A stretch of 64,000 nucleotides of DNA, taken from assembly GCA_022508345.1 (NCBI GenBank), contig JAFLVK010000001.1, forward strand, positions 356,371-420,370. Direction: 5' to 3'. The notes under the pieces are model-generated. The model had not been told where the DNA came from. It saw nothing but the letters and a program-made list of their open reading frames with translations, and made no database searches. The translations under genes and the position numbers were made by a program. This stretch comes from Clostridiales bacterium (GTDB taxonomy: Bacteria > Bacillota > Clostridia > Christensenellales > CAG-314). Below, one piece after another: positions 12,221 to 55,755 of this stretch (position 1 is its first letter; each line of letters begins with the position of its first letter).

Positions 12221-12341
12221 TGAGGGGGTAGAAGCGAGGTAGGCGAGGCGCACGCGGATGAGGCGACAGGAGTGTACTGGGCGTACATGACTGAGCCGAA
12301 ACGCAAGTGCAACAAAGCATACCGAAGTTTATAGCCCCTCA
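12221..12341 (-). repeat. Palindromic element PE, copy 1, at the 3' end of spoIIE
   Basis: A 121-bp imperfect palindrome. The outer arms TGAGGGG (12221-12227) and CCCCTCA (12335-12341) close it, and the right arm includes the spoIIE stop codon. The apex reads AGGAG, TGTAC (12273-12277), TGGGC, GTACA (12283-12287), TGACTGAG. Intermediate arms pair with mismatches and G-T wobbles, for example GGTAGGC against GCATACC. Copies 2 and 3 lie at 50445-50580 and 55629-55755. Read as spoIIE mRNA it makes one long hairpin straight after the stop codon. Confidence 0.75.
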
Positions 12342-14612
12342 CGCAATTTTGGCGACGACTACCGTCATGTCATCCGCCGGCTTGTTGTTGCACAGCTTTA
12401 GCGCTTTGCTAAGTATCACATCGGCAATACTTTGCGGAACATTCAGCGACACTTCGGCAAACACGCGGGCAAGTGCCACGGGATCCTTGAAGCAATCAGC
12501 AACACCGTCGGATAGCAATACTACAACATCGCCACCCATAAGCGCCTTTTTGGTAATGGACGGCTTCATCTCCTCCAACACACCAAGGGGCAGGCTGCTA
12601 CCGGAAACAATCTCCACCTTGCCGTCATTTTTTACAAGTCCGGCGCATGCACCCAGCTTGATAAAGTCCGCCAGGCCGTTGTACAAGTCCAGCACAACCA
12701 CGTCCACCGCGCAAAAGATTTCGTTTCCGCTACCCACCAGCAGCTTGTTTACACAGGACAGTATCGTGTCGTTGTCAAAGCCCGCGCGGTAAAAGCTTTC
12801 CACCAGGCTTATCGACGTTGCGGACATCTGTTCCGCTTTGTCTCCGCTACCCATGCCGTCGCAAAGGGCTACAATACACTTGCCGTTGTCCGTACGCGTA
12901 ACGGTGTGGGTGTCGCCGGAAATTTCATTGCCGTGCTTTGCAACGGAGCTTACGCCAAAGGTAACATTGTAACGCGGGCGAACATTCAAAAAAACATTGA
13001 CCCATGTAGCGCTTTCGGTGCTTTCAATGCGTTCGATTGCCATGCTTTGCTTGACGACGTTGCTTACCACCTTTTCGATAGTTTCGTTGTCGACGTCGCT
13101 CTTGGCTACCGTAAGCACAACTGTAACAATCTCCTTTTGCTGGGCGATAACCGCGCCCGAACACAGCACGTTGTGGAACACAAGGCTGTCCACCAGCTCC
13201 TGCTCTCGGGTGTGGTCGTAGCCTGTGCGGTTTTTGCAATCGGACGCCAGCTGCATCAACAAGTTGGACACGCCGCCCATCTGTTCGCCAAGCAAGGTTT
13301 TGCCGTTGTCCGCCTGTTCAACACGTTCGCGATAAGCGCGGTAAATTTGCGCTTGTTCGTTCACCTCGCTGAGCATTGCCGAAACCCTATCGCACTTGAC
13401 GGATAACGCCTGCGGAACGTCCAAAATGGAGCACTTGCCCCGTTTTACTGCACACACTCCCAGCTGTAGCAGGCTTTGCTCCGTTTGTGCGATATCCTGT
13501 CGCCAACACTTTGCCCTGCTTGGGCAGTCGCGGCAAACGCTTTCGGAGCACTGCCTTACAATGCCTTTTTCCGCCTCTTCAGGAGTGATAGCCCCTGCCG
13601 ACATTGTGAAAAAGGCTTGCTTCATGGACATGAATATATCTGACAGACGGTATAACCTACGCGATACCGTGTCGCCCACCTTTTGCACCACGCTTTTGCT
13701 AAGATACCGCTCGGCACTGCCCGAACAGTAATCGTGAACGTGCCTGTACACGCCTGTGGGCACAACGACGAACACCAGCGCAGATGCAAACGTCGGAGCA
13801 AACACCGCCATATTGAACGCGCCGTGAAGATTGAGAAAATAGGACATGAGCACATCCACCAACAGCACAGACAGCGCACCGACGTATCTGTTTACCTTGC
13901 ACAGGGTAACGCTGGCTAGCGCGGAGATAACGCAATACACACAGCATTCGTAGCTGCCCGTTGCAAACACGTTGCCAATACCGATAAGCACTGCACCCAT
14001 AAGTGCGGTTTTGTCGCTAAAACACACCACACAAAACAAAATTGCAAATGGAACAACAAAATAAATGAGCTGAAGCTGACCGAACGTAATTAGCGACAGC
14101 GAGTAGCTTGCAACAGCTGTCAGCAAGCCGATACACACAGTTTCGTCCAAGGCGGGACGGTAGTTGAGCCCGCGAACGAAAACCGCGCGGAACACGTAAA
14201 TACACACATAGGAAAAGGCAATGCCTATCGCTGCGTAAAGGCACCTGTCAAACAGACTGAAGTAATCGACAAAGCTGTAAACTACGTAAAAGACGTTGGC
14301 TACAACAAGGTAAATAAGCAAAGTAAGCTTGTTTATTTTGTGCTTGGTAAAGTAGTGAATACCCACAAACACCAGCAACACGGCAGCTTTCACAGCAGCG
14401 TGCAGCAGGTTGACCCAGCCGTAAACAACTGCACTGCTGAGATACACAACCGTGGCAACAATGGGGTTCGCCGAGTACACCGCGCCGACAAACAAGCCAA
14501 AAGCAATGTTCCCCTCAAACACGCCGCCGGACACAACCGCCAGCGCAGTAAAGGTAACGTAAAGTAAAATTGTCTTGACTGTCAGCTTTTCCTTTACCGT
14601 AGATAACTTCAT
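12339..14612 (-). CDS. spoIIE: Stage II sporulation protein E, SpoIIE serine phosphatase
   Basis: 757 residues. Residues 1-290 hold about ten membrane segments. A middle region follows with Cys-rich CSESVCRDCPSRAKCW (about 355-370), and the C-terminal PP2C-type phosphatase has ALCDGMGSG ending at residue 590, SDGVAD (701-706) and PADDMTV (Asp 747-748). In Bacillus SpoIIE dephosphorylates SpoIIAA to activate sigma-F in the forespore and helps the asymmetric septum. It is somewhat shorter than the Bacillus protein (about 830). It lies downstream of spmAB on the same strand. Confidence 0.95.
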   Translation of the reverse strand: MKLSTVKEKLTVKTILLYVTFTALAVVSGGVFEGNIAFGLFVGAVYSANPIVATVVYLSSAVVYGWVNLLHAAVKAAVLLVFVGIHYFTKHKINKLTLLIYLVVANVFYVVYSFVDYFSLFDRCLYAAIGIAFSYVCIYVFRAVFVRGLNYRPALDETVCIGLLTAVASYSLSLITFGQLQLIYFVVPFAILFCVVCFSDKTALMGAVLIGIGNVFATGSYECCVYCVISALASVTLCKVNRYVGALSVLLVDVLMSYFLNLHGAFNMAVFAPTFASALVFVVVPTGVYRHVHDYCSGSAERYLSKSVVQKVGDTVSRRLYRLSDIFMSMKQAFFTMSAGAITPEEAEKGIVRQCSESVCRDCPSRAKCWRQDIAQTEQSLLQLGVCAVKRGKCSILDVPQALSVKCDRVSAMLSEVNEQAQIYRAYRERVEQADNGKTLLGEQMGGVSNLLMQLASDCKNRTGYDHTREQELVDSLVFHNVLCSGAVIAQQKEIVTVVLTVAKSDVDNETIEKVVSNVVKQSMAIERIESTESATWVNVFLNVRPRYNVTFGVSSVAKHGNEISGDTHTVTRTDNGKCIVALCDGMGSGDKAEQMSATSISLVESFYRAGFDNDTILSCVNKLLVGSGNEIFCAVDVVVLDLYNGLADFIKLGACAGLVKNDGKVEIVSGSSLPLGVLEEMKPSITKKALMGGDVVVLLSDGVADCFKDPVALARVFAEVSLNVPQSIADVILSKALKLCNNKPADDMTVVVAKIA

Positions 14613-14617
14613 TGTAA

Positions 14618-14642
14618 AAACTCCCCAAAAGTGGACTTGGGG
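14618..14642 (-). promoter_or_regulatory. Hairpin covering the spoIIE ribosome-binding site
   Basis: On the minus strand CCCCAA (14637-14642), an 8-nt loop and TTGGGG (14623-14628) are followed by AGTTTTTACA and the spoIIE ATG. The 3' arm contains the only Shine-Dalgarno (GGGGAG). The same element resembles a terminator for spmAB because of the T run, so it may end spmAB messages and/or hide the spoIIE start. Confidence 0.5.
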
Positions 14643-14714
14643 TAATAATACAACGGCTAGTACGGCTGGTTTTGAAATTATGTGTAAATTATTGTAAAAA
14701 AATGGTAAGTAACT

Positions 14715-15218
14715 TTACATTAACCTGCACAGCAAGCACGCCACCACGCTCCCCAGCAGATTGCAAAACAGCGCGATGGGAATAGCCCAGCCTGTCCTTT
14801 TAACCTTGGTGCCTGCAAAGTACACCGAAGCAACGTAGAATACCGTTTCGCTACTGCCCATGATAACCGAAGCGCAACGCCCGACGTAGCTGTCCACGCC
14901 GTAGGTGTTGTAAACGTCGGTGAGTATTGCCAGGCTACCGCTACCGGAAAACGGGCGAAGCAGCACAAGCTGGACAACTTCGCTAGGAATACCCAGCAGC
15001 TTAAAGGGTGGGGCTAAGAAACGGGTGATGTACACGTCTACACCGCTTGCGTGTAACGCGTTTACCATGATGAATATTGCCGCAAGGTAGGGGAATATAG
15101 ACAGCGACAAATTGAAGGACTTTTTCGCCCCAAGTACAAAACTGTCGTAGACGTTTACGCGCTTTACAAGCCCCGTGACAAGCACGGCTAATAGCAATAT
15201 CGGCACGACGTAATTCAT
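14715..15218 (-). CDS. spmB: Spore maturation protein B
   Basis: 167 residues with about four hydrophobic helices. The conserved nucleoside-recognition (Gate) core includes FPYLAAIFIMVNALHASG, LLRPFSGSGSLAI and MGSSETVFYV, which is diagnostic for SpmB. SpmA and SpmB are needed for spore core dehydration and heat resistance in Bacillus and Clostridium. The start overlaps the spmA stop by 4 nt (ATGA), so the two are translationally coupled. Confidence 0.95.
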   Translation of the reverse strand: MNYVVPILLLAVLVTGLVKRVNVYDSFVLGAKKSFNLSLSIFPYLAAIFIMVNALHASGVDVYITRFLAPPFKLLGIPSEVVQLVLLRPFSGSGSLAILTDVYNTYGVDSYVGRCASVIMGSSETVFYVASVYFAGTKVKRTGWAIPIALFCNLLGSVVACLLCRLM

Positions 15219-15772
15219 GACTTGGGCCTTCCATACGCCATAAACACCAGCGCCACGCCCACAACGCTTGTTACAATGGTGGAAAGCAGGTTGGGCAGCA
15301 GGATATCCGACGGGTTAGCCGAACCCATCGAGGCGCGCAACCCTATCACCGTTGTGGGAATTAGCTGCACGCTTGTGGCGTTGATAACAAACAGCATTGC
15401 CCCACTGCGTGATAGCTGCTCCTCATGCTCCATCACCTGTATTGCGGAAATCGCCGATGGCGTTGCTGCATTACCCACCCCCAGCAGGTTGGAGGCAAGA
15501 TTTAGCGAAATGTAGTCGGAAGCGGCCTTTTCGATGTTGCCGTACAGCCACCTGTTGAGACGAGTAAACAATCGCGACAAACCCTCCACCAGCTTGCACC
15601 TGTCGGCAACTTCGAAAATGCCCAGCCACAGGCAGTACACGCCACATAGCCCCAGTGCAGTGGTCAATGCCTGCGCCGAGCTATCCAAACATACAGTGAG
15701 CACGCCCTGCGGATTGGTAAATGTAAGCACCGCAAGCGACAGCACCGTTACAACCGTCCAAACAATATTCAT
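15215..15772 (-). CDS. spmA: Spore maturation protein A
   Basis: 185 residues, integral membrane. The Gate-domain signature ASDYISLNLASNLLGVGNAA and MFVINATSVQLIPTTVIGLR-type segment (about 130-150) identify SpmA. It is divergent from metG across 134 bp. No forespore-type promoter could be assigned with confidence in that gap. Confidence 0.95.
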   Translation of the reverse strand: MNIVWTVVTVLSLAVLTFTNPQGVLTVCLDSSAQALTTALGLCGVYCLWLGIFEVADRCKLVEGLSRLFTRLNRWLYGNIEKAASDYISLNLASNLLGVGNAATPSAISAIQVMEHEEQLSRSGAMLFVINATSVQLIPTTVIGLRASMGSANPSDILLPNLLSTIVTSVVGVALVFMAYGRPKS

Positions 15773-15792
15773 ACTGTAGTTTATTAAACTTG

Positions 15793-15821
15793 TTTACAAA
15801 AAAAAACAAAAGATATATACT
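15793..15821 (+). promoter_or_regulatory. Promoter of the metG operon
   Basis: TTTACA (15793-15798), 17 nt, TATACT (15816-15821). The ~80-nt leader has a small GCGG/CCGC hairpin (near 15866-15882) and GAGAGG before metG. Confidence 0.65.
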
Positions 15822-15906
15822 ATATGTACTTTAATCGCTTGTTTGTGCGGTTAAAAATATTCGCTGCGGTTTCATTTGCCGCATACGAAAAACCGAGAGG
15901 TATATT

Positions 15907-17841
15907 ATGAGCAAAAAAACTTACTACATCACCACACCCATTTACTACAGTAGCGGAAGCCTGCATATCGGGCATTGCTACACTACAGTCATTTGCGACG
16001 CCATTGCGCGCTTCAAACGCATGGACGGCTACGACGTGTTTTACCTGACGGGCAGCGACGAACACGGACAAAAGGTGCAACAGAAAGCCCAAGCGGCAGG
16101 CGTAACACCCAAAGAATACGTAGACAGGCTGTACGAACAGATTGTGGAGCTGTGGAAAATACTGGGGATATCCTACGACAAGTTTATCCGCACCACCGAC
16201 GACTACCACGAGAAAACCGTGCAAAAGGTGTACGAAAAGCTACTTGAAAGCGGCGATTTGTACAAATCGGAATACGAGGGCTGGTACTGCACCCCTTGCG
16301 AATCTTTCTGGACGGAAAGCCAGCTTGTAGACGGCAAGTGCCCCGACTGCGGACGTGAGGTGAAGCTGCAAAAGGAGGAAAGCTACTTCTTCCGCCTGTC
16401 GAAGTACCAAGACAGACTAATCAAGTTCTACGAGGAAAACCCCGAATTTATTTCACCCAAGTCGCGCATGAACGAGATGATAAACAACTTTATCAAGCCG
16501 GGTCTCAAGGACTTGTGCGTGTCGCGTACAACATTCGACTGGGGTGTAAAGCTACCGTTTGACGAAAAACACGTTGCTTACGTTTGGATAGATGCGCTGA
16601 CCAACTACATCACGGCACTGGGATATCTGCAAGAGGACAGCACACTTTACGACAAGTTTTGGCCGGCAGATTTGCACATGGTGGGCAAGGAAATTGTACG
16701 TTTCCACACTATCATATGGCCTGCGCTACTGATGGCTCTCGATTTGCCACTGCCCAAAAAGGTGTACGGACACGGTTGGGTGCTGTTTGGCAACGACAAG
16801 ATGAGCAAGTCCAAGGGTAACATTGTTGACCCCATCTTTTTGAGCAATCGCTACGGTGCAGACGTACTGCGCTACTTTTTGCTTCGCGAAATTCCCTTTG
16901 GCAGCGACGGCAACTACAACAACGAAGCGCTACTAACGCGCACCAACGCCGACTTGGTCAACGACCTGGGCAACCTTGTGTCGCGCACCACGGCAATGGT
17001 TACGCAATACTTCGATGGAGTAATTCCCCGTCCTAACGGCTACACGGAGCTGGACAGTGAATTGATTGCACTGTGCGAGGGCACCCTCACAAAGGTTCGC
17101 GCAGATATTGACAATCTGTCCGCCCCCGACGCACTGGTGGATATATTCAAGATTGTCGAGCGCGCCAACAAGTACATTGACGAAACAATGCCCTGGGCGC
17201 TGAACAAGGCAGGGGACAAGGAGCGCCTTGCAACAGTAATGTACGTGCTGTGCGAATGTATCCGTTTTTCGGCGACAATGCTGCTGCCCTTTATCCCCAC
17301 CACGGCAAACACTATTTTTGCCAAACTTGGCTTGCCCACCCCCACCAACTTCACCAAGCTGAAAAAGTTTGGCGGTATTGGCAAAAACGTCAAGGTAACA
17401 AAGGGCGACAACCTGTTCAACCGTATCGACATACCCAAGGAGCTTGCGGAATTGGACAAAATTGCCGAAGAGCAAGCAAAAAAGGCTAACAAAGCTGAAG
17501 AAAAGCCGTCGGAAGAGGAGCAAATATCCATTGACGACTTCATGAAGGTAAAGCTGTGCACCGCAAAGGTACTTAGCTGCGAAAAAGTGGAAAAAAGCGA
17601 CAAGCTACTTGTGTTCAAGCTGCAAGTGGGCGACGAAGTTCGCCAAGTAGTGAGCGGAATTGCCGAACACTACACCCCCGAATACATGATTGGCAAAACC
17701 GTTGTGCTTGTTAGCAACCTCAAGCCCGCAAAAATACGCGGCGTAGACAGCAACGGCATGATACTGTGCGCTGCCGATGGCAAAAGCGTTGTGTTCGTTA
17801 CTCCCGAAAAGGACATTGACAGCGGAAAGGTTGTAAGATAA
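15907..17841 (+). CDS. metG: Methionyl-tRNA synthetase
   Basis: 644 residues. HIGH at 20-23 and KMSKS at 298-302 are the class I active-site motifs. C128/C131 and C145/C148 form one CxxC-CxxC zinc knuckle in the connective domain. About 540-644 is a C-terminal tRNA-binding (Trbp111-like, OB-fold) domain, preceded by a Lys/Glu-rich linker. It charges tRNA-Met. GAGAGG lies 6 nt before the ATG. Its stop overlaps the tatD start (TAATG). Confidence 0.97.
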   Translation: MSKKTYYITTPIYYSSGSLHIGHCYTTVICDAIARFKRMDGYDVFYLTGSDEHGQKVQQKAQAAGVTPKEYVDRLYEQIVELWKILGISYDKFIRTTDDYHEKTVQKVYEKLLESGDLYKSEYEGWYCTPCESFWTESQLVDGKCPDCGREVKLQKEESYFFRLSKYQDRLIKFYEENPEFISPKSRMNEMINNFIKPGLKDLCVSRTTFDWGVKLPFDEKHVAYVWIDALTNYITALGYLQEDSTLYDKFWPADLHMVGKEIVRFHTIIWPALLMALDLPLPKKVYGHGWVLFGNDKMSKSKGNIVDPIFLSNRYGADVLRYFLLREIPFGSDGNYNNEALLTRTNADLVNDLGNLVSRTTAMVTQYFDGVIPRPNGYTELDSELIALCEGTLTKVRADIDNLSAPDALVDIFKIVERANKYIDETMPWALNKAGDKERLATVMYVLCECIRFSATMLLPFIPTTANTIFAKLGLPTPTNFTKLKKFGGIGKNVKVTKGDNLFNRIDIPKELAELDKIAEEQAKKANKAEEKPSEEEQISIDDFMKVKLCTAKVLSCEKVEKSDKLLVFKLQVGDEVRQVVSGIAEHYTPEYMIGKTVVLVSNLKPAKIRGVDSNGMILCAADGKSVVFVTPEKDIDSGKVVR

Positions 17842-18623
17842 TGATAGACAGTCACTTGCACCTGGACGATGCCAAGCTGTCAAGCATGGTTGACGAAATA
17901 TATGACAGTTTTGCAGATTGCGGCATAGAATTTGTTATCAACAACAGCTGCGACATGCCCACCATGACCAACGGCGTGGAATTGGCAAACAAATACGAAA
18001 ATATTTTTGCCACTGTGGGCATGCATCCCCACGAAAGCAAGCATTTCAACCAAAAGTTTGTTTCCTTAATGAAACAGTACGCAAAGCACCCCAAAGTTGT
18101 TGCTGTGGGCGAAATCGGGCTGGACTACTACTACGATTTGTCGGACAGACTTACGCAACGGGACGTATTTGCACAGCAGATAGAAATTGCCGACAGCTTG
18201 CACCTACCCTTAACACTGCACGTCCGTGATGCGTACGGCGACGCGTGGGATATCCTGCGTGCGCAGAAAAAACACCTCAACAACGGTGTGCTGTGGCACT
18301 GCTACAGCGGTAGCGCGGAATTTGCACGCCAAATGGTGCGCGAAGGGCACTACTTTGCATTCGGCGGGGCAATTACCTTTAAAAATGCGCACAAAGAGGA
18401 CGTGTTTCAGCAAATTCCCATGGAGCGCGTGCTTTCGGAAACGGACAGCCCATATATGTCTCCCGAACCGCTACGGGGCAGGGTCAACACACCGCTTAAC
18501 ATCCCGATAATTGTTGCAAAAATTGCAAGCTTTTACGGCATGGACGTTGAAACAACGGAAGCGCAAATTCGGGAAAATACGCTAAGATTATTCCCCAAAA
18601 TAAAAACATATTTGAAAAAATAA
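17841..18623 (+). CDS. tatD: TatD family metal-dependent hydrolase
   Basis: 260 residues, TIM-barrel amidohydrolase fold. DSHLHLDD at the N-terminus gives the HxH metal pair, AVGEIGLDYYYD the Glu ligand, TLHVRDA and LWHCYSG the later histidines and SETDSPYM the catalytic Asp. TatD enzymes are 3'-5' DNA exonucleases or D-aminoacyl-tRNA deacylase-like hydrolases. The metG-tatD order is common in Firmicutes. It starts within the metG stop. Confidence 0.95.
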   Translation: MIDSHLHLDDAKLSSMVDEIYDSFADCGIEFVINNSCDMPTMTNGVELANKYENIFATVGMHPHESKHFNQKFVSLMKQYAKHPKVVAVGEIGLDYYYDLSDRLTQRDVFAQQIEIADSLHLPLTLHVRDAYGDAWDILRAQKKHLNNGVLWHCYSGSAEFARQMVREGHYFAFGGAITFKNAHKEDVFQQIPMERVLSETDSPYMSPEPLRGRVNTPLNIPIIVAKIASFYGMDVETTEAQIRENTLRLFPKIKTYLKK

Positions 18624-18648
18624 AACAGTCCCTTTCTTAAGGTGAACT

Positions 18649-19242
18649 ATGAATAATTATGTATACATAATAGGAAACAAAATATATATCAACCTCACCA
18701 ACCGTTGCAGCAACAATTGCGACTTTTGCATACGGCAGGGGCGCGAGGGCATGTCGGGAACGGCGCTGTGGATTGACGATGAACCCACTGCTGCCGACGT
18801 AATAGAACAGCTACCCACAAACCTGGACGATTACGAGCCCGAAGTGGTATTTTGCGGTTTCGGCGAGCCCACCTACAACCTGGAAGCACTGGACGAGGTG
18901 GCAAGCTACCTGCACTGCGTGGACAAAACCACGAGGATAAACACCAACGGTCAAGCAAACCTAATAAACAAAGAGGACGTAACGGAGCTGATTGTAACAA
19001 GCTGTGACGTGATAAATGTGTCGCTAAACGAATGCAATGCGGACAAGTATCAACAGCACTGCAACAGCATATTCGGTACAAAAGCGTACGAAGCGATGTT
19101 GGAATTTGCAACGCTGTGCAAGCAAAAAGGCGGAAACGTAATATTTTCCGTTGTGGACAGCATTGGTGCAAAGGACATTGCCGAGTGTCAAAGGCTTGCA
19201 GATAGGCTACACATTCCACTGAGAATAAGAGCAAAAGAATGA
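18649..19242 (+). CDS. TatD-associated radical SAM protein
   Basis: 197 residues. NLTNRCSNNCDFCIRQGREG carries the CxxxCxxC cluster motif within the first 30 residues, followed by FCGFGEPTYN, the SAM-binding GGE-like motif. The family with this short length is regularly found next to tatD, often described as TatD-family-associated radical SAM protein; its reaction is not established. AAGG with a short spacer precedes the ATG. It overlaps queH by 4 nt, which ties it to queuosine salvage or tRNA modification by context only. Confidence 0.9.
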   Translation: MNNYVYIIGNKIYINLTNRCSNNCDFCIRQGREGMSGTALWIDDEPTAADVIEQLPTNLDDYEPEVVFCGFGEPTYNLEALDEVASYLHCVDKTTRINTNGQANLINKEDVTELIVTSCDVINVSLNECNADKYQQHCNSIFGTKAYEAMLEFATLCKQKGGNVIFSVVDSIGAKDIAECQRLADRLHIPLRIRAKE

Positions 19243-19871
19243 ACCTAAATTACGACAAAGAGTTGGAAAAAATAAAGAGCGGCATTGACGTGAACAATCC
19301 GCCGAGGCTGCTTTTGCAGGTGTGTTGCGCGCCCTGCGCCACATATTGCCTCACGCGGCTGCTCAGACACTTCGACGTGACGCTGTACTACGCCAACGAC
19401 AACATCACCGACCAAGCCGAATGGCAAAAGAGGCTTGAGCAAGTGCAAAAGCTTGTGGACGCAGTAAACGGCAACAAATTCGAAATTTCGGCAATTCGCC
19501 CGCTGCGCTTGGTTGTACAGGAACACAACGCTTCGCGGTTCTTTGCCGCAGCTAAGGGCTTGGAGCGCGAAAAAGAAGGAGGCGCTCGCTGTGAACAGTG
19601 CTTTGTGTTGAGGCTAGCCGATGCACAGAAATACGCTACAGAACACGGCTTCCACTACTTTGGCACCACGCTCACCGTTTCCCCCTACAAAAACAGCAAG
19701 CTGTTGAACGAAATAGGCTTGAGCTTGCAAACGGATAACGTCAAGTGGCTAAGTTCCGACTTCAAGAAGCAAAACGGTTACAACGAAAGCATACGCTTGT
19801 CGCAATGCTACGGGCTGTACCGACAGCACTACTGTGGCTGCACATATTCAGCACAAACATTAGATAAATAA
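19239..19871 (+). CDS. queH: Epoxyqueuosine reductase QueH
   Basis: 210 residues. VCCAPC (C29, C30, C33), YANDNI, GGARCEQCFVLRL and a terminal YRQHYCGC pattern are the conserved features of QueH (formerly DUF208), which reduces epoxyqueuosine to queuosine in tRNA and is unrelated to QueG. Cysteines of these motifs bind an iron-sulfur cluster and a second iron. Last gene of the metG operon; a terminator follows. It fits with the queuosine-precursor transporter at 58765. Confidence 0.95.
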   Translation: MNLNYDKELEKIKSGIDVNNPPRLLLQVCCAPCATYCLTRLLRHFDVTLYYANDNITDQAEWQKRLEQVQKLVDAVNGNKFEISAIRPLRLVVQEHNASRFFAAAKGLEREKEGGARCEQCFVLRLADAQKYATEHGFHYFGTTLTVSPYKNSKLLNEIGLSLQTDNVKWLSSDFKKQNGYNESIRLSQCYGLYRQHYCGCTYSAQTLDK

Positions 19872-19876
19872 GAGGT

Positions 19877-31916: not shown

Positions 31917-32003
31917 TGTTGTTATTAAACTCCTTTTATTTGTTAGCAAAGCTATTTGCAGGCGTAAACGTAGTTCGTATCAGACGAAGAATACACTTGC
32001 AAA

Positions 32004-48064: not shown

Positions 48065-48110
48065 TAGTAACAATTCCTCCAATTTTGTTGTCAATTGTAC
48101 ATTACGATAT

Positions 48111-48521
48111 TTACGCTATGTGCTTGGTGATGAAAGCAGGCAGCTCCTCCTTGGTGCCACTGGCAGTAACAACGAAGTTTACGTTGTGCTCCTTACTGAT
48201 TTGCTCCAAGCCTTGGTAAAGCTCGGCAAGCTCACTGACGTTGCAATCAAGCAGACGTGTGATACCGTCCATATAAACTTGCTCTATATCGAAGTTAGCG
48301 GCTAACATTCCCTTGATGAAGGAAAGAATGTCGTGCTGGCTGGTTAACCCGTAGTGAGATGCGTCAACAAGTCGAACGCTACGGTGTAAATCGTGTAATC
48401 TGTGATTTGAGCGGTCGATGTACACAACAACGCCCTTTGCGTCCTTTGCGTATGTGTTGGCTTGGTCTACTATTATCTTGGTTTTGCCTGTGCCTTTTGC
48501 GCCGTAAATTACTTGTATCAA
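48111..48521 (-). CDS. Small P-loop ATP-binding protein
   Basis: 136 residues from TTG 48521, chosen for GGAGGA 8 nt upstream; the longer frame has an unrelated basic extension. VIYGAKGTGKTKII is Walker A, and QVYMDGITRLL may be Walker B. Proteins of this size in Clostridia are often labelled PilT-like, without evidence for a pilus role. No pilus gene is near. Confidence 0.65.
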   Translation of the reverse strand: MIQVIYGAKGTGKTKIIVDQANTYAKDAKGVVVYIDRSNHRLHDLHRSVRLVDASHYGLTSQHDILSFIKGMLAANFDIEQVYMDGITRLLDCNVSELAELYQGLEQISKEHNVNFVVTASGTKEELPAFITKHIA

Positions 48522-48630
48522 TTGAGTGTTCCTCCGTTTCTTTTTGTGAAGGACAACCTTCACCTATACCTATTGTAGCGTATTTGTTAAGAAAATTCAA
48601 GGGCTTTAAAAAAATAATCTAAAACAAACA

Positions 48631-48651
48631 GCTCCCCTACCACAGGGGAGC
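48631..48651 (-). terminator. Hairpin after the hydrogenase operon
   Basis: GCTCCCCT, a 5-nt loop and AGGGGAGC, followed on the minus strand by a T-rich but interrupted tract. Confidence 0.6.
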
Positions 48652-48674
48652 CATTAGTTGACTGTTGCAAAATT

Positions 48675-50414
48675 CTATTCCTTGTTGTATTTAGCCTTAG
48701 CGTTGTAGTGTGTGTGCAGCAGCTTGTGCGCCTTGTCACCGTTGGGTTCGCCAAGATATTGCTGATACACTTCCGTTACCGAGCCGTTTTTGTGGCTGCG
48801 ACGGTTGTACATGGCTTTGTCGGCATTGTACAGCACGCTTGCACGCGTTGTAGCAACATCGTCTCTGTGCTTGACGAATGTTGCACGGATAGGTTGTCCG
48901 CCACCCATTACACAGCCACCAGGACAGGTCATAACTTCGATAAATTGGTAGTCACATTCACCTGATTTTACCCTGTCACACACTTTCTTTGCATTTGCCA
49001 GCCCGTTTACCACTGCAACCTTGACGGTTTTGCCTGCAATCGCATACGAAGCTTCCTTAACTCCGGACAAGCCGCGCACTTCTTCGAACTCCAGCTTGTT
49101 GAACGGTGCTGTGGGGTCCAGTACACTAACTGCCGTGCGCAGTGCCGCCTCCATAACACCACCCGTTGCACCGAAGATGATACCCGCGCCGGAATATTCG
49201 CCAAATGGGCTGTCCGTTTCGCTGTCGGGCAGGTCGTTTAACAATATGCCGTTTTCCTTCAACAGTCGCGCAATCTCTCTTGTGGTGAGCACCGCGTCCA
49301 CATCGGGAACGCCATCGGTAAAGGTGCGTTGTTTTTCACCCTTTTTAGCTGTGCAGGGCATGATGGAAACAACAAATATATCCCTGGGGTCTAAATTTTG
49401 CCGTTTTGCAAATACGCCCTTAACCAGCGCACCGAACATCTGTTGCGGAGACTTGCAGGTGGAAAGATTGTCCAGCAGCTCGGGATAGTTCTTCTCAGCG
49501 TAGTTGACCCAACCGGGGCAGCAGCTGGTAAACATGGGCAGCTTGCCGCCATTTGCTATCCTCGACACAAGCTCGTTTGCCTCTTCCATGATGGTGAAGT
49601 CTGCCGAACTGTTTATGTCAAACACTTGCTTGAAGCCAAGATAGCGAAGCGCTGTATTTATCTTGCCTTGACAGTTGGTTCCTACCGGTGTGTCAAATTC
49701 CTCGGCAAGCGCAGCCCTAACCGACGGAGCGGTACCCACAACTACGTACTTGTTGTGGTTGGCAAGCGCTTCCTGTACGCGCAGCGTTTCCGGCTTGGTT
49801 CTCAGTGCGCCTGTGGGGCACACAACAGTACACTGTCCGCAGCCCACACATGGGGTATTGGTCAATTTCATGTCGAACGGACACGCAATATGGGTTGCAA
49901 AACCGCGCTCGTTTGTTCCGATAACGCCAACGCCCTGCTGAGCCTTGCACACGGCTACGCACCTGCGACACAATATACATTTGCTGTTGTCGCGGATGAT
50001 GTAGTCGGTGGATTCGTCGTAAACGAAGTCGCGTGTTGCGCCCTCGAAGCGGGAGCTGTCGCAATCGTACTTGTAGGACAGGCGTTGCAGTTCGCAGTTG
50101 GTGTTGCGTTCGCAGGACAGGCAATCCTTGCGGTGGTCGGACAAAATCAACTCGATTGTAGTCTTGCGCGAATTGAGCACGCGTTGTGAATTGGTGTACA
50201 CTTCCATGCCGTCACGGGCAGGATATTCGCAAGCGGCAACAAGGCTGTTCATGCCCTTGACCTCCACCACGCACACACGGCACGCGCCCAGCTCGCTGAT
50301 ATTTTTCATATGACACAGGGTGGGTATTTTGATACCGATGCTCCTTGCCGCTTCAAGGAGCGTTGCCCCTTCCTCAACGTATACAGGTATATTATTTATT
50401 TTTAAACCAATCAT
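48675..50414 (-). CDS. hydA: [FeFe] hydrogenase catalytic subunit (HydA/HndD type)
   Basis: 579 residues. An N-terminal [2Fe-2S] domain (C34, C45, C48, C62) is followed by a His-Cys3 [4Fe-4S] region (DHRKDCLSCERNTNC), a two-cluster ferredoxin domain (about 140-215) and the H-cluster domain. The latter has L1 TSCCPGW (C298, C299), L2 MPCTAKK (C354) and L3 TCPGGCVMGGGQP (C497, C501). The short C-terminal small-subunit domain is fused. With the NuoE- and NuoF-like proteins upstream this is the group A3 layout, which couples NADH and ferredoxin oxidation to H2 production. Separated from the NuoF gene by palindromic element copy 2. Confidence 0.95.
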   Translation of the reverse strand: MIGLKINNIPVYVEEGATLLEAARSIGIKIPTLCHMKNISELGACRVCVVEVKGMNSLVAACEYPARDGMEVYTNSQRVLNSRKTTIELILSDHRKDCLSCERNTNCELQRLSYKYDCDSSRFEGATRDFVYDESTDYIIRDNSKCILCRRCVAVCKAQQGVGVIGTNERGFATHIACPFDMKLTNTPCVGCGQCTVVCPTGALRTKPETLRVQEALANHNKYVVVGTAPSVRAALAEEFDTPVGTNCQGKINTALRYLGFKQVFDINSSADFTIMEEANELVSRIANGGKLPMFTSCCPGWVNYAEKNYPELLDNLSTCKSPQQMFGALVKGVFAKRQNLDPRDIFVVSIMPCTAKKGEKQRTFTDGVPDVDAVLTTREIARLLKENGILLNDLPDSETDSPFGEYSGAGIIFGATGGVMEAALRTAVSVLDPTAPFNKLEFEEVRGLSGVKEASYAIAGKTVKVAVVNGLANAKKVCDRVKSGECDYQFIEVMTCPGGCVMGGGQPIRATFVKHRDDVATTRASVLYNADKAMYNRRSHKNGSVTEVYQQYLGEPNGDKAHKLLHTHYNAKAKYNKE

Positions 50415-50444
50415 TTTTAAAACATTATCTCCTCGTCATAAAGT

Positions 50445-50580
50445 TTTTTGAAAGTACAGTCGCGCGGAAGGCGGGTAACAGGTGGCAGTTGACCGAAAGG
50501 AGCGTACTATACGTACGTGACTGAGGCAACCTGACGCACGTAGCCCGTATAACGCGATGAATGTGCTTTCAAACTTTTTC
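50445..50580 (-). repeat. Palindromic element PE, copy 2, inside the hydrogenase operon
   Basis: An imperfect palindrome between the NuoF-like stop and hydA. Its outer arms TTTTTTGAAAGTACA and TGTGCTTTCAAACTTTTT pair with mismatches; the right arm includes the stop codon of the NuoF-like gene. Apex: AGGAG, CGTAC (50503-50507), TATAC, GTACG (50513-50517), TGACTGAG. The hydA ribosome-binding site (GAGGAG) lies just beyond the left arm. Confidence 0.7.
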
Positions 50581-52431
50581 GATTGCGTTGAAGCGGCACT
50601 TAGAAGCGCACACACCGCATTTAACGCACTTAGTTGTGTCAATTACGTGCGGTTCCTTGACAGTTCCGCTGATTGCATTTGCGGGACAGTTGCGCGCGCA
50701 CAGCGTACAACCCTTGCACTTTTCGGGGATGATTGTGTACTTCAACAGGGACTTGCACACACCTGCGGGGCACCTGTGCTCCTTGACGTGAGCAACGTAC
50801 TCTTCACGAAAATATTTCAGCGTGGACAGTACAGGGTTGGGAGCAGACTGTCCCAAGCCACACAGAGAATTGTCCTTTATGTAGTGGCACAGCTCTTCCA
50901 TCTTGTCAAGGTCTTCCATTGTTGCCGTGCCCTCGGTAACCTTGCACAGCATTTCGTACAGACGGCGCGTACCAATGCGACATGGGGTACATTTTCCGCA
51001 AGATTCATCAACGGTGAATTGCAAATAGAACTTAGCAATGTCCACCATGCAGTTGTCTTCGTCTAGTACTATCAATCCGCCGCTACCCATCATGGAACCG
51101 ATGGAGGACAGGCTTTCGTAGTCGATGGGGATATCCTGTAGTGACGCGGGGATACATCCGCCACTGGGTCCGCCCGTTTGAGCAGCTTTGAACTGCTTGC
51201 CGTTGGGTATGCCACCGCCGATGTCGTAAATGATTTCCTTGAGGGGTGTACCCATGGGTATTTCCACAAGGCCTGTGTTGTTGATTTTGCCACCCAAGGC
51301 GAAAACCTTGGTGCCCTTGCTCTTTTCCGTACCTATTGCAGCGTACTTGTCGGCACCGTTCAGTATTATTTGCGCAATGTTTGCGTAAGTTTCCACGTTG
51401 TTCAAAAGCGTGGGCTTGCCAAACAGTCCCTTTTCGGCAGGGAAGGGAGGACGGGGACGGGGTTCGCCACGGTGACCTTCGATACTGGTCATCAATGCCG
51501 TTTCCTCACCGCACACAAACGCGCCTGCGCCAAGACGTATTTCCAAGTCGAAGCAGAAGCTTGTTCCGAAGATGTTGTTGCCAAGCAAGCCGTATTCGCG
51601 CGCTTGATTGATGGCTAACTGCAGGCGTTGCACCGCAATGGGGTACTCGGCACGCACGTAAACGTAGCCTTGATCTGCGCCAACAGCGTAGGCGGCAATT
51701 GCCATGGCTTCCACAACGCAGTGAGGGTCACCCTCCAACACCGAACGGTCCATGAACGCACCGGGGTCGCCCTCGTCGGCGTTACAGCAAACGTATTTTT
51801 TGTCGCCGTGAGCCTTTTGCGTGAACATCCATTTGCGCCCTGTCAAAAAGCCTGCGCCACCGCGACCGCGCAGTCCCGACCTTGTTACTTCGTCAACAAT
51901 TTGGTCGGGGGTCATTGTCAATGCCTTTTGCAATGCAAAGTAGCCGTCGCGGGCAATGTATTCGTCGATATTTTCCGGGTCGATAACGCCGCAGTTGCGC
52001 AATGCGTGGCGAAGCTGACGGCAGTAGCTTTCAATTTCGTTGAAGGGCTTGCTCTTTCCGTCTGCATCTATGTAAAGCAGGCGCTCCACCTCTTTGTTGC
52101 CGATAAGGTGGCTCTCTACGATTTCCTCGGCGTCCTCCACCTTGACGTGGCTGTAAAATGTTCCGTCGGGGTACACCACAACCACCGGGCCTGCAGCACA
52201 CAGACCGAAACAGCCTGTTTGTCCAACGTGAACGCGGCTGAGCCCGGCCTCTTTAACCAGCTCGGTTAGGCGAGCGCGAATTTTCTGTGAGGATTCGGAA
52301 GCGCAACCTGTTGAACCGCAAACAAGCACCTGTCTGTCAAATTCCATTCCTTTGAGCTTTGCGTGGGTAAAGCGATTGCCAACCTTTTTGTAGGTATTAT
52401 TTTTTATTTGATTCAGTCTCTTGGCATCCAT
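50569..52431 (-). CDS. hydB: NuoF-like flavoprotein subunit of the hydrogenase (HydB/HndC type)
   Basis: 620 residues. Residues ~30-120 are a thioredoxin-like [2Fe-2S] domain (CGSTGCAS and QTGCFGLCAAGP). The NuoF core follows with GLRGRGGAGFLTGRKW for FMN and NADH, and CGKCTPCRIGTRRLYEML for a [4Fe-4S] cluster. The last ~70 residues are a two-cluster ferredoxin (CKGCTLCARNCPANAI and CVKCGVCASKCRFNAI). It accepts or donates NADH electrons in the trimeric hydrogenase. It ends inside PE copy 2. Confidence 0.95.
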   Translation of the reverse strand: MDAKRLNQIKNNTYKKVGNRFTHAKLKGMEFDRQVLVCGSTGCASESSQKIRARLTELVKEAGLSRVHVGQTGCFGLCAAGPVVVVYPDGTFYSHVKVEDAEEIVESHLIGNKEVERLLYIDADGKSKPFNEIESYCRQLRHALRNCGVIDPENIDEYIARDGYFALQKALTMTPDQIVDEVTRSGLRGRGGAGFLTGRKWMFTQKAHGDKKYVCCNADEGDPGAFMDRSVLEGDPHCVVEAMAIAAYAVGADQGYVYVRAEYPIAVQRLQLAINQAREYGLLGNNIFGTSFCFDLEIRLGAGAFVCGEETALMTSIEGHRGEPRPRPPFPAEKGLFGKPTLLNNVETYANIAQIILNGADKYAAIGTEKSKGTKVFALGGKINNTGLVEIPMGTPLKEIIYDIGGGIPNGKQFKAAQTGGPSGGCIPASLQDIPIDYESLSSIGSMMGSGGLIVLDEDNCMVDIAKFYLQFTVDESCGKCTPCRIGTRRLYEMLCKVTEGTATMEDLDKMEELCHYIKDNSLCGLGQSAPNPVLSTLKYFREEYVAHVKEHRCPAGVCKSLLKYTIIPEKCKGCTLCARNCPANAISGTVKEPHVIDTTKCVKCGVCASKCRFNAIEKV

Positions 52432-52434
52432 GAC

Positions 52435-52929
52435 TTACACCCCCTTGTACTTGTTGAGTATTGCTTCAACGTCGTCCGGCTTGATACGTCCGTACACGTC
52501 TTCATTTATCGTCATTACGGGAGCCATGCCACAGCAACCAACACAACGGGTTGCGTCCAGGCTAAACAACTTGTCAGCAGTGCATTCGCCGCTTTTAATA
52601 CCGAGTAGCGCTTGCAACTTGTCGTAGATATCCTGTGAACCGTTGACGTAGCATGCTGTACCCAGGCAAATACCTATTTGGTACTTTCCCTTGGGATACA
52701 GTGAGAATTGAGAGTAAAATGTTGCAACTCCGTACACATCGCTAAGTGCCACATCCAACTCCTCGGCAATGATTTGCTGAACCTCGTAGGGCAAATAACC
52801 GTACAGCCCTTGCGCAAATTGCATTGCAGGCATCAATGCGCCCTGCTTTTCTTTCAGTTCCTTCAGCTTGAGACGTAACATCCGTTCCTGTTCCGGCGTT
52901 CCGTCAAAAGGTAATGTTGAACCTTTCAT
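52435..52929 (-). CDS. hydC: NuoE-like [2Fe-2S] subunit of the hydrogenase (HydC/HndA type)
   Basis: 164 residues from ATG 52929, with GGAGG 5 nt upstream; the 28 extra codons back to 53013 look like leader. GICLGTACYVNG and CVGCCGMAP supply the four cysteines of the thioredoxin-fold [2Fe-2S] cluster. First gene of the operon, 3 nt before the NuoF-like gene. The region 52930-53129 upstream is very A+T rich and must contain the promoter; no clear -35/-10 pair or Rex operator was identified. Confidence 0.93.
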   Translation of the reverse strand: MKGSTLPFDGTPEQERMLRLKLKELKEKQGALMPAMQFAQGLYGYLPYEVQQIIAEELDVALSDVYGVATFYSQFSLYPKGKYQIGICLGTACYVNGSQDIYDKLQALLGIKSGECTADKLFSLDATRCVGCCGMAPVMTINEDVYGRIKPDDVEAILNKYKGV

Positions 52930-53129
52930 ATCGTCCTCCATTTTTTTGCGTAGTTTAAAAAACAACTTTTTCAGTATATCAAAAAATACGTTTTTCGACA
53001 AATTTATAGACATTATAACAATATATGAATTTTTTATAGATATATAAGTATTTTTTAGGGCACAGGCCTAAGTAGTCCACACAAAACGGTTTTAGTGCAT
53101 TTAATTGCGCTAAGTATTGCAGAAAATGA

Positions 53130-53160
53130 AAAAAGCTCCCACTGCACAGGGGAGCTTTTT
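53130..53160. terminator. Terminator after the ABC importer operon
   Basis: AAAAAGCTCCC and GGGAGCTTTTT form an 11-bp stem with a 9-nt loop; T-rich on both strands. Confidence 0.8.
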
Positions 53161-53170
53161 AATTGACTTG

Positions 53171-53896
53171 TTATCTGTTTTTTAGGTCGTTTACGCTTGC
53201 TTCCGCGGTTTTACTTGCCTCAACGATGAGGTGCTCTTGCAGTTGCTTGCGCAAGGCGATTGTTTCGTCGGAGTAGGGTGAGCGTTGTTCCCTTGGGGTG
53301 GTCAACTCGGCAACGTGGGTGAGGCTTGCCGGACGGTTGGCTAACAAATAGATGTTGTCGGCAAGCGCCAACGCCTCGTCGATGTCGTGGGTTACCAGCA
53401 CTACCGTTTTGTCGTAATTTTTCAGCAGAGTGTGCAATGTGTCATACAGCTTGCACCTTATGCCGTAGTCAAGGCTGTGAAAGGGCTCATCCAGCAGCAG
53501 TACCGAGCGGTTGGCTGCAAAGGCACGCGCAAGCGCAACACGCTGTTGTTCACCGCCGGATAGCGTAGTTGACTTCTTGTCCTTCAATTCAAATATTTGT
53601 GCTAACTTCAGTACGTTTTCTATCTGTTCGCGACCTGTTTTGCCGTCAATTACTGCCAAAACATTGTTGTAAACGCTTATCGGCGCAAGACTTGGGGTTT
53701 GAAAAACCATTGCCACCTTGTCCGATTGGCAACTGCCCGAATATTCAACCAGGTTGGCAATTACGCTCAACAGCGTTGTTTTGCCACTGCCCGACTGACC
53801 GACAACGACGTTTACTCCCTTGCCAAATTCACAGCTGAAGTTATCGTAAATTGTGTTGTCGCCGTAGCTGACGGAGATATCTGCTAGCTTGATCAT
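53171..53896 (-). CDS. ABC importer ATPase, SsuB/TauB-like
   Basis: 241 residues from ATG 53896. Walker A VVGQSGSGKTT, Q-loop VFQTPSL, signature LSGGEQQRVALARA and Walker B LLLDEPFHSLD are complete. It resembles the ATPases of the nitrate/sulfonate/taurine/thiamine-precursor importers. Starts 5 nt after the permease gene. Confidence 0.88.
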   Translation of the reverse strand: MIKLADISVSYGDNTIYDNFSCEFGKGVNVVVGQSGSGKTTLLSVIANLVEYSGSCQSDKVAMVFQTPSLAPISVYNNVLAVIDGKTGREQIENVLKLAQIFELKDKKSTTLSGGEQQRVALARAFAANRSVLLLDEPFHSLDYGIRCKLYDTLHTLLKNYDKTVVLVTHDIDEALALADNIYLLANRPASLTHVAELTTPREQRSPYSDETIALRKQLQEHLIVEASKTAEASVNDLKNR

Positions 53897-53901
53897 AATT
53901 A

Positions 53902-54663
53902 CTACCGTGACCTCCTTGTACATCTTGCTTGGCACAGAGAAATTACACCGCTGATAGCAAAGCAAACAACCAGTGTCAACAACGTCAACGCAACCACCCT
54001 TGCCGTGTCCAAATTTACCTTGCCTATGTACATTTGCCTGCCTATGCCGGAAAAGGGCAGGGCAAGCACTTCCCCTGCAATGACAACCTTGATACACAGC
54101 GGAAGCTCCTCGGCAACAATTGTCAGCAGCTCGTCACGGACAATGGGCAGAAACATAAATTTTATTTTCTTTGCCGCAGTTACTTCGTACACCTTGCACA
54201 CGTCAAGCAAATTGCCGTTGTGCTTAAACGCGCGCGATAGCACACTGTACACAATGGGAAACGCCACCAAAAACGCCACCACCGCAGGCACAACTGTGGA
54301 ATTAAATACAATTAGCGTAACCAAAATAATTGCAATGGTTGGCAGCGCGCGCAAAAAAGTAACTACGCAATCTACAGAGAAAGCGCACTTGGGATACAAA
54401 AACACCAGCATACTGAGTAGCACTGCCACAATTACCGAAACAACAAAAGCGCATATTGCCCGTAGCAAGGTGTTGAGCAGCGCAAGATAGATTGCTCCGT
54501 CGCCAAGCAGTGTAAAGGTAAGCTTTACCACCGCCCAAGGTTCGGGCACAATCAATTCGCTGTCAAAAATTAACGCTGCGACGTACCACAAAAGTATCGC
54601 CACAGCGATTAACACAACTATCTGTATTAAATTGCTAACAAATTGTTTAGTTCGAATTTTCAT
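53902..54663 (-). CDS. ABC importer permease, SsuC/TauC-like
   Basis: 253 residues with six hydrophobic helices. FLRALPTIAIILVTLIVF and the EVTAAKKIKFMFLPIVRDEL loop correspond to the EAA motif of BPD_transp_1 permeases. Its start overlaps the binding protein gene by 17 nt, so the subunits are translationally coupled. Confidence 0.88.
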   Translation of the reverse strand: MKIRTKQFVSNLIQIVVLIAVAILLWYVAALIFDSELIVPEPWAVVKLTFTLLGDGAIYLALLNTLLRAICAFVVSVIVAVLLSMLVFLYPKCAFSVDCVVTFLRALPTIAIILVTLIVFNSTVVPAVVAFLVAFPIVYSVLSRAFKHNGNLLDVCKVYEVTAAKKIKFMFLPIVRDELLTIVAEELPLCIKVVIAGEVLALPFSGIGRQMYIGKVNLDTARVVALTLLTLVVCFAISGVISLCQARCTRRSR

Positions 54664-55597
54664 GATAAATGCTGTCGGGTATAGAGGTTATACCGAACGT
54701 GCTTAGGTAGCTTGCTATGTCTGCTTTGGCATCTTGAGCTGCAATAATTGTAAGGTTGCAACGAGCAATGAGCTCCGTGGTATAAGTGACAGTAAGCGAA
54801 CTTCCTGCTTTTCCCAACAGTTGGCTCAAGCTACTGCAGTTAGCCGTTACGAACGCGCTGTTTGCCGTAAGTGATGCCATTAGCTGCGTGGCAAATTCGT
54901 CGGTGAGCAAATCTTTCTTGACAATCAAGCTGGCTTGAGGATAGCCATTTTGGCTGGAGTCCGTAGCCTCCTGCCACAACTGTTGCAAATCGAACAGGTT
55001 GAACACTTCAATGCCCTTATCTTGCGCTTTAGCCATGAGTTGCGTTACAGCAGGTTCGCCTAAAAGAGCGAACTTTGCCTTGCCGTTAAGTATCTGCGGA
55101 ATTATCGTTGTAGCGTCCGTTTGATACTGTATATCTATTGCATTTTCACCTTGATATTTCACGCCCCAGGTGTCGCAAACCTTTTTGAAGACGTATTCGG
55201 GGGTGTTTCCAAGCCCGATACTGTAAAGCGTTTCGCCCTGCAACTCGGCTAAGCTTTCAATGCGTTGTGTACCCACGATGTACAGCACACCGTACACGTT
55301 TACGCTAAACAGCAGGTAATCGTTGCGCTTTTTGCAGATGTTTACCGCAGCGTTAGTGGGTAGCACTGCCATGTCCGCTTCGCCGTTGCTGCACTTTGCC
55401 ACAACCTCTTCGCCTGTGGTAACGACAGTGTCCACGGCTTGCTTTCCAACAGCCTTGTCGTTGACAATCTTTGCAACGGACAAAGCAGGCGCGCCGTCGG
55501 GAACATACAAGGTTAATTTGTTGTCATTGCATGCGCACATCGCGCACACTGAAGCAATCAAAATTATTGCTACCAATATTGCTAAATATTTTTTCAT
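54647..55597 (-). CDS. Substrate-binding lipoprotein of an SsuABC/TauABC-type importer
   Basis: 316 residues. A signal peptide ends in a lipobox (CAMCAC near residue 22). The mature part has the two-lobe NMT1/THI5-like plan: YVPDGAPALSVAKIV at the start, a DMAVLPTNAAVN segment and FALLGEPAVTQLM. Ligand could be a sulfonate, a pyrimidine or another small organic anion; the sequence does not decide. GAGGA precedes the ATG by 6 nt, just outside PE copy 3. Confidence 0.85.
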   Translation of the reverse strand: MKKYLAILVAIILIASVCAMCACNDNKLTLYVPDGAPALSVAKIVNDKAVGKQAVDTVVTTGEEVVAKCSNGEADMAVLPTNAAVNICKKRNDYLLFSVNVYGVLYIVGTQRIESLAELQGETLYSIGLGNTPEYVFKKVCDTWGVKYQGENAIDIQYQTDATTIIPQILNGKAKFALLGEPAVTQLMAKAQDKGIEVFNLFDLQQLWQEATDSSQNGYPQASLIVKKDLLTDEFATQLMASLTANSAFVTANCSSLSQLLGKAGSSLTVTYTTELIARCNLTIIAAQDAKADIASYLSTFGITSIPDSIYHENSN

Positions 55598-55628
55598 TTT
55601 TTATCCTCAACATGTAAATATCCCGAAG

Positions 55629-55755
55629 GATTGAGGCGGTCAGATGCGAGGTAGACGAGGCGCGCGAGTATTTTGCGAAGGAGTTTACTAGGCGTAAATG
55701 ACTGAGCAAAAACGGAGCGGAACAAAGCATACCGACGCATATCAACGCCTCAATC
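55629..55755 (-). repeat. Palindromic element PE, copy 3, at the 3' end of prfA
   Basis: A 127-bp imperfect palindrome with perfect 10-bp outer arms GATTGAGGCG (55629-55638) and CGCCTCAATC (55746-55755). The right arm contains the last codon and stop of prfA. Apex: AGGAG, TTTAC (55684-55688), TAGGC, GTAAA (55694-55698), TGACTGAG. It lies between prfA and the importer operon. Confidence 0.75.

Follow-up and report, generated by a model that had tools for sequence, protein, structure and literature searches.

The 64,000-nt stretch of DNA analysed here (the window), from contig JAFLVK010000001.1 of a Clostridiales bacterium, contains three copies of a palindromic element, each of which ends on its right at the stop codon of a minus-strand gene (Table 1). 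By Pfam the three genes are unrelated to each other; the second is NuoF-like (open reading frame, ORF, 50569-52431, minus strand, matching Complex1_51K and NADH_4Fe-4S) and the third encodes a class-I release factor (ORF 55750-56820, minus strand, matching PCRF and RF-1). A first-pass annotation of this sequence had described three copies of an apex, all in one orientation relative to the adjoining gene, with stems that differ (TGTAC/GTACA, CGTAC/GTACG and TTTAC/GTAAA), a perfect 10-bp outer arm in copy 3 (in the minus-strand fold) and a minus-strand stop, read as TCA on the plus strand, within each right arm; all of this proved correct, the ORFs ending at 12339, 50569 and 55750. The apex pattern AGGAG-NNTACTNNNCGTANN-TGACTGAG, with up to three mismatches, matches three times in the window and not once in 100 dinucleotide shuffles. 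A covariance model (R1), built from seven exact-apex copies of the same genome, gave three strong matches when the full window was scanned, all on the plus strand and likewise with filters off, the next match being at 13.5 bits (E 0.64); the training set of R1 included the window copies, whose scores are thus no independent proof. Copy 1 has fold z-scores of -6.3 on the plus and -2.5 on the minus strand. Rfam at gathering score has no match in the window and, outside it, only tRNA and 5S matches in 11 of 80 other loci.

Table 1. Coordinates of the element copies and associated features in the window (subtypes are defined in the text)
Feature	Position	Strand	Context and basis
Copy 1, subtype A	12220-12343	+	right end at spoIIE stop; model R1 139.5 bits, E 7e-29
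Copy 1 apex: AGGAG, 5+5 bp stem, TGACTGAG	12268-12295	+	pattern match
spoIIE TGA inside right arm of copy 1	12339-12341	-	ORF 12339-14612 (-); Pfam SpoIIE
Copy 2, subtype B	50448-50573	+	right end at NuoF-like gene stop; model R1 94.9 bits
Copy 2 apex	50498-50525	+	pattern match
NuoF-like gene TGA inside right arm of copy 2	50569-50571	-	ORF 50569-52431 (-)
Copy 3, subtype A	55632-55753	+	right end at prfA-like stop; model R1 126.3 bits
Copy 3 apex	55679-55706	+	pattern match
Release-factor gene TGA inside right arm of copy 3	55750-55752	-	ORF 55750-56820 (-)
Decayed B-like palindrome, internally deleted	31955-32003	.	adjoins ssb stop (32004); ssb by Pfam

The window copies belong to a dispersed family whose members occupy sites that are empty in relatives, have sharp ends (in subtype A), keep a predominant orientation with the right end anchored at a stop codon, vary in their stems by paired changes and share an apex with sequences in other phyla. 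The genome of the window (G000) holds seven exact apices, and 11 when one mismatch is allowed. Model R1 at E<=0.01 finds 38 matches in G000, 57 in the congener G008 and between 0 and 12 in each of the remaining 23 of the 25 genus members scanned, so that 20 of the 25, G000 included, have a match. At family level (E<=1e-5) 18 of 41 genomes match, 17 of them from the genus itself. G000 has 18 occurrences of the pattern GGAGYGTACTNNNCGTACRYGAC, which is absent from a sample of 390 further genomes of the class that included no congeners. Such patchy occurrence is typical of mobile DNA. For detailed study, 80 stretches around copies (fetched stretches carry L numbers; one from G008 was omitted) and the window yielded 100 copies at E<=0.001: 36 from G000, 55 from G008 and 9 from the congener G007, against 38, 57 and 12 in the genome scan. 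Match length is 65-174 nt, with a median of 124.

Three subtypes were distinguished by eye: A, TTGAGGCGG...CCGCCTCAA; B, TTTGAAAG...CTTTCAAA; and C, CCAAACGG...CCGTTTGG. Sorted by rule, 79 copies fall in A, 16 in B and 3 in C (98 of the 100). The three window copies are not uniform: copy 2 is of subtype B and the others of subtype A. The congener G004 holds three copies with a variant apex, AGGAAGTTACTGGAGGTACCTGACTGAG (L008, L013 and G004:C37:2206-2233), possibly a separate amplification. Some copies contain nested short palindromic repeats, of the form GTGGCGAGG...CCGACCCCCAGCG in L110:2716-2886 and L091:3008-3178, and ACTACGTGGCGTTCGCTTCGCTCGGCT-like in L073:2958-3109, L065:2779-2929 and L069:3121-3294, which suggests that further small repeat families land in these palindromes; none of the nested fragments searched for occurs in the window.

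Comparison of flanks among G000, G007 and G008 gave 42 matches, of which 25 were empty and 17 occupied (some being one site viewed twice), and the empty sites are reciprocal among the three genomes. Sites empty in relatives show insertion. The site of copy 3, for instance, is empty in G008 (stretch L085): the occupied prfA gene ends in GAC GAT TGA and the empty orthologue in GGA GAA TAA, with the stop at the same position. We inspected the 22 empty matches with a target gap of at most 260 nt and set aside those with a visible remnant (L116:2999, L061, L110:3715, L081) or no comparable reading frame (L098, L082, L114), which left 14 comparable protein-gene sites (L070 was seen twice, and L115/L074 may hold a remnant). 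At eight of the 14 the stop is unmoved between alleles and lies no more than 4 nt from the edge (L057, window 55632, L117:10248, L097, L115, L047:3407, L093:2995 and L108:4314). At six of these eight the element's own TGA or TAA now serves as the stop, the empty allele having TAA, TAG or TGA; at L097 and L115 the host stop is retained and the element follows it. The two alleles at L117:3022 end two residues apart. Beyond the element, some sites (L049 and L057 among them) still have what by eye is a terminator-like host hairpin.

Among the sites set aside, L082 lies away from any gene end, and the subtype C copy L114:9584-9711 directly abuts a tRNA-Val gene (L114:9712-9788); the subtype C copies L114:8417-8544 and L048:3006-3134 are followed by what appears by eye to be the remnant of a tRNA 3' end. 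A G007 copy (L098:1756-1878) stands directly behind a T-run that, by eye, resembles a leader terminator, and the orthologous G008 site is empty.

Placement relative to genes was assessed from simple ORF calls, a copy being counted as anchored where a stop lies within -15 to +2 nt of its right edge. In 83 of the 100 copies the gene to the right is encoded on the minus strand, and so opposes the element, and in 73 the right end is anchored at the stop of that gene; uniform placement in the gap would predict 24 of the 83. The anchored offsets fall into clusters: TGA within the end at -5/-4, stops just beyond it at 0 to +2 (TAA or TAG in most cases), and stops further in at -15/-12 that are for the most part TAA. 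Of 21 convergent gaps, 19 show anchoring of the stop on the right and none of the stop on the left; among the 26 plus-strand genes lying to the left of a copy, none ends in an anchored stop. On contigs C1 and C12 of G000, 31 of 34 copies agree in orientation with their GC-skew half. The three exceptions (70406 -, 536405 + and 653164 +) still have their right end at the stop of the opposing gene; it is therefore the gene that sets the orientation, and a lagging-strand orientation of the IS200/605 kind was rejected. The GC skew of the fetched stretches of contig C1 changes sign at about 476-533 kb, where a replication origin or terminus may lie.

The ends of the element were located from the decay of pairing between its arms. 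In the 79 subtype A copies, complementarity within the copy, followed outward from the anchor AG(A/T)(A/T)GCG, stays at 0.66-0.97 for 11 nt and then falls to 0.61 (12th base) and 0.27 (13th base); with swapped partners the values are 0.29-0.62 over the first 12 nt and 0.26 at the 13th. Inverted ends are thus present, the arms pairing for some 12 nt up to the element end, and in subtype A these ends read TTGA...TCAA. Pairing in subtype B (16 copies) falls at the same position; with so little variation among its arms, swapped partners pair almost equally well, save at the 12th base (0.75 against 0.29). Because pairing in subtype A drops to background one base beyond the end, the arms belong to the element. 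The idea that each copy is adapted to its gene end, its arms having been copied from or matched to the gene, is accordingly not supported, and an inverted target duplication, in which the left arm would be a copy of the gene end, was rejected for the genus on the same fall from 0.61 to 0.27, the level of the swapped control. The arms do pair within each copy, as the first-pass annotation had stated, but they are not simply gene-specific, since they follow a common consensus with paired changes around it. At the ends, direct repeats of 4-6 nt are about as frequent as in the controls, which amounts to no clear target duplication; subtype A has a small excess of 2-nt repeats at one assumed end (11/79, control 4.5) and of 3-nt repeats at the next (5/79, control 1.3). 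This is an element with fixed ends and no clear target duplication. No terminator T-run follows the hairpin in the sense direction, bases 13-16 of the left flank being mixed and without an A-run on the plus strand, although single loci may differ. At a few loci of other lineages (for example L126, L129 and L179) the arms extend, by eye, into coding sequence.

Within these ends, sequence changes while pairing is kept. Over 33 stem pairs of the 100-copy alignment, 91.3% of cells are standard pairs against 67.8% after shuffling, and 774 cells are changed on both sides against 252.3, a value reached by none of 500 shuffles; this alignment was fitted to model R1, and its pairing counts lean towards the model. 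Shifting the partner by 1-3 columns lowers pairing to 25-42%. A MAFFT alignment of seven copies has both-sided change at 20 of the 33 pairs. The better fold is that of the plus strand (the one antisense to the anchored gene) in 83 of 87 copies with RNA parameters and in 86 of 87 with DNA parameters (13 copies of unusual length being omitted), as compared with 67 of 174 flank controls. G-U cells outnumber A-C cells by 215 to 86, or by 150 to 86 once the fixed apical G-U is discounted; the plus strand is purine-rich (A+G 60%). Given its better fold, its G-U excess and its purine content, the folded species is probably the plus strand, whether as RNA or as single-stranded DNA (ssDNA). The first-pass annotation had listed in advance few further copies, no significant covariation and random placement relative to stops as outcomes counting against its view; what we found were many further copies, strong covariation and non-random placement at stops. 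Its interpretation is supported in part: the family is palindromic, looks mobile, varies strongly by paired changes and prefers gene ends.

Eight pairs of copies at sites common to two species (one pair of subtype B, two including truncated copies) have core identities of 0.69-0.89, much the same as random subtype A pairs (0.79, sd 0.06, 310 pairs). Five pairs of copies have near-identical cores, in which 14 of 450 positions differ, and strongly different arms: 21 arm base pairs have changes that are both-sided and paired in both copies, 4 are both-sided and unpaired in at least one, and 9 are one-sided, these counts being inflated by 1-nt register shifts. Either the arms are re-specified at insertion or the cores are exchanged by gene conversion. 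The decayed palindrome in the window (Table 1) scores below the R1 threshold and was assigned by eye; its orthologous site in G008 carries a full copy (L081:2969-3093).

The apex is not confined to the genus. Its pattern occurs in at least 116 stretches of the genome_contigs collection, where calculation predicts about 4, and among the 80 matches listed are Clostridia/Christensenellaceae, Bacteroidales/Muribaculaceae/Alistipes, Lentisphaerae and Deltaproteobacteria/Myxococcales; nearly all source titles are metagenome-assembled genomes or uncultured isolates, and single taxon assignments may be wrong. In some genomes several contigs carry the apex, with a count of at least 12 for Deltaproteobacteria WY2.bin34. 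Of 43 loci hand-picked from the 80, about one per genome, 39 fold better on the plus strand, and copies with their own arms have a mean of -44.3 kcal/mol against -29.2 with swapped right flanks, all 30 swaps being beaten in 34 of the 43. Across phyla the apex recurs while the arms differ, yet remain paired. By manual count, 39 of 89 matches have a minus-strand stop 32-58 nt to the right of the apex, 4 of the 39 being G008's own; WY2.bin34 contributes 9 of its 12 and Bacteroidales 1 of 11, and the remaining cases are clostridial or unnamed. A Christensenella-type copy, L139:134-310, stands close behind a 5S rRNA gene (Rfam RF00001). An origin in phages or plasmids was rejected, the apex having no match in viral_contigs and copy 3 none by blastn against phages and plasmids; blastn of copy 1 against E. 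coli genomes was likewise without a match. No description of the element was found in the literature by apex sequence strings, judged by title and abstract, nor by topic among the matches listed.

A Y1/RAYT partner (RAYT, tyrosine transposase associated with repetitive extragenic palindromes, REPs), which the first-pass annotation had suggested looking for, is not supported by the genomes. No Y1_Tnp match was found in the four genomes richest in copies (G008, G000, G007 and G012), and 12 of the 25 genomes of the genus have one, as do 9 of 16 other apex hosts. RVT_1 is present in 4 of the 25, among them G007, third in copy number, and absent from G000, G008 and G012; DEDD_IS110 is present in 4 of the 25 and in none of the four richest. 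Phage_integrase (PF00589) has two matches each in G000 and G008 and up to 14 elsewhere in the genus, unrelated to copy number. Ten Y1 loci (of 26 Y1 matches) and four reverse transcriptase (RT) loci were scanned and contain no element copy. For want of a link with copy number, all four families were rejected as mobiliser; the four richest genomes are 76-95% complete, and that an enzyme gene was missed in all of them is possible but unlikely.

We read the element as a mobile, non-autonomous palindrome some 125 nt long with fixed ends, resembling REPs and miniature inverted-repeat transposable elements (MITEs) and inserted mostly at gene 3' ends, its folding strand running antisense to the gene, and to this we give a probability of roughly 0.6. 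The moved unit would be a folded single strand, either ssDNA or an RNA copy, recognised through its apex, and a trans-acting enzyme of some type would recognise gene 3' ends. Wherever a stop is anchored it stands at the element's right end, whose TGA or TAA often becomes the new stop, which would make insertion almost harmless. Several observations weigh against this reading. Five of the 14 comparable sites (L049, L088, L125:12432, L070 and L085) lie inside the old reading frame, 2 to about 11 codons short of the empty-allele stop, and purifying selection may therefore explain part of the precision at stops. The right-hand gene is not opposing in 17 of the 100 copies, and 27 are unanchored by ORF calls, some of them at short genes missed by the ORF caller (e.g. 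L097, L115) and others away from gene ends. Eight site pairs are shared by species with mostly 70-85% identity in syntenic DNA, which is long-lived for selfish insertions. Stop anchoring, seen in clostridial loci and in WY2.bin34, is shown by only 1 of 11 Bacteroidales matches and by none of the 8 from Lentisphaerae or the 2 from Myxococcales/Sandaracinaceae (manual counts). No mobilising enzyme emerged in the genus among the four families searched (other transposase families were not searched), and no gene lies inside any of the 100 copies, the longest being 174 nt, although the model might miss a copy split by a gene. A broader proposal, which we advance tentatively and consider the less probable, is a cross-phylum superfamily of mobile structured strands with the tip GGAG-YGTAC-N5-GTACR-YGAC, inserted by undescribed machinery at stop codons or other gene 3' ends, each copy carrying its own stop and having arms that are re-specified by paired changes from one copy to the next.

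Part of this evidence could be accommodated by other processes. The paired changes might have arisen through palindrome-directed template switching (quasipalindrome correction) instead of selection for the fold, in an otherwise ordinary dispersed palindrome. The preponderance of both-sided paired arm changes in the five pairs with near-identical cores is what such correction would give, but internal loops and a tandem G-A mismatch in the apex persist without being perfected (in other phyla, part of the apex is fixed by the search pattern), and the excess of G-U over A-C is strand-specific; we regard this explanation as unlikely, if not negligibly so. Somewhat less probable still is a structured 3' RNA that acts in cis, by protecting mRNA 3' ends or stalling ribosomes, and that selection maintains at each gene. 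The position at stop codons, the eight site pairs common to species and the stability of the sense-strand hairpins (mean -37.9 kcal/mol) are all compatible with it, and E. coli REPs no more than 15 nt from a stop have been reported to stall ribosomes (PMC12306157). However, the better-folding strand, with its G-U pairs, is antisense to the gene, so that a sense-strand RNA, one of the options of the first-pass annotation, is not favoured; moreover the window copies stand behind unrelated genes, sites are often empty in relatives, and at L049 and L057, for example, the host retains its own terminator-like hairpin (by eye).

Copying of a plus-strand RNA by target-primed reverse transcription, with a 3'-OH at the gene end as primer, in the manner of a short interspersed element (SINE), would fix the orientation, and RNA-like composition, the G-U excess on the plus strand, a 3' end at the gene, the copies at tRNA-Val (L114) and behind 5S (L139) and the RVT_1 match in G007 are in keeping with it; the lack of RVT_1 in G000, G008 and G012 and of a clear target duplication makes it improbable. 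A classical REP or bacterial interspersed mosaic element (BIME), mobilised by a RAYT since lost, would likewise be palindromic, extragenic and 3' of genes with GGAG beside a hairpin, and Y1_Tnp does occur in the genus; its absence from the four richest genomes, the ten scanned loci without a copy and its presence in only 9 of 16 other hosts leave this very unlikely. The least credible alternative, to which we attach hardly any weight, is a recombination site like the attC of integrons. In attC sites structure is kept above sequence, the site is a folded single strand, and it lies just behind a stop in fixed orientation, bounded by the R' and R'' boxes GTTRRRY and RYYYAAC. The present element is also an imperfect palindrome folded from a single strand in fixed orientation behind a stop; its ends are, however, TTGA/TCAA, its copies are dispersed and not in arrays, tyrosine-recombinase matches are unrelated to copy number, and it is the apex and not the ends that is conserved.

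Among known systems, REPs and BIMEs (GTAG and CGTC types, RAYT-associated) are similarly short, palindromic, extragenic, multi-copy and mostly 3' of coding regions, and CGTC REPs are described as likewise without a known transposase (PMC3733652). They differ in a unit of 20-40 nt and a terminal GTAG/CGTC tag, where the element has about 125 nt and a conserved internal apex, one predominant orientation relative to genes, an end that mostly coincides with or adjoins the stop, paired stem variation and no Y1 match in the richest genomes. Bacterial MITEs are also short, non-coding and dispersed, with inverted ends and empty sites in relatives; unlike them, the element has no clear target-site duplication and no cognate transposase that we found, and its whole length is a covarying hairpin. 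Some of the multicopy sequences of Geobacter and Pelobacter genomes have been described as intergenic families of palindromes (PMC2996986). The Xanthomonas small RNA sX9 (RF02228) aligns weakly, at 10.6 and 12.1 bits against a gathering score of 44, over the same GTAC...GTACACTCC hairpin; at E<=0.01 it had no match in 11 host genomes, in 9 of which only part of the first-look candidates was scored, and identity with sX9 was rejected. We file the element as a mobile palindromic repeat with a gene-end landing rule, set apart from REPs by unit size, tag and RAYT and from MITEs by target duplication.

Short palindromic repeats are common in bacteria, although it is seldom clear where and how they land. 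The combination of empty sites, sharp ends, predominant orientation and a stop anchor makes the target rule of this family directly testable, and a tip common to several phyla suggests that the recognition event is either old or widely mobile. For annotation, the consequence is that the C-termini and 3' ends of genes in host genomes have in part been rewritten by the element.

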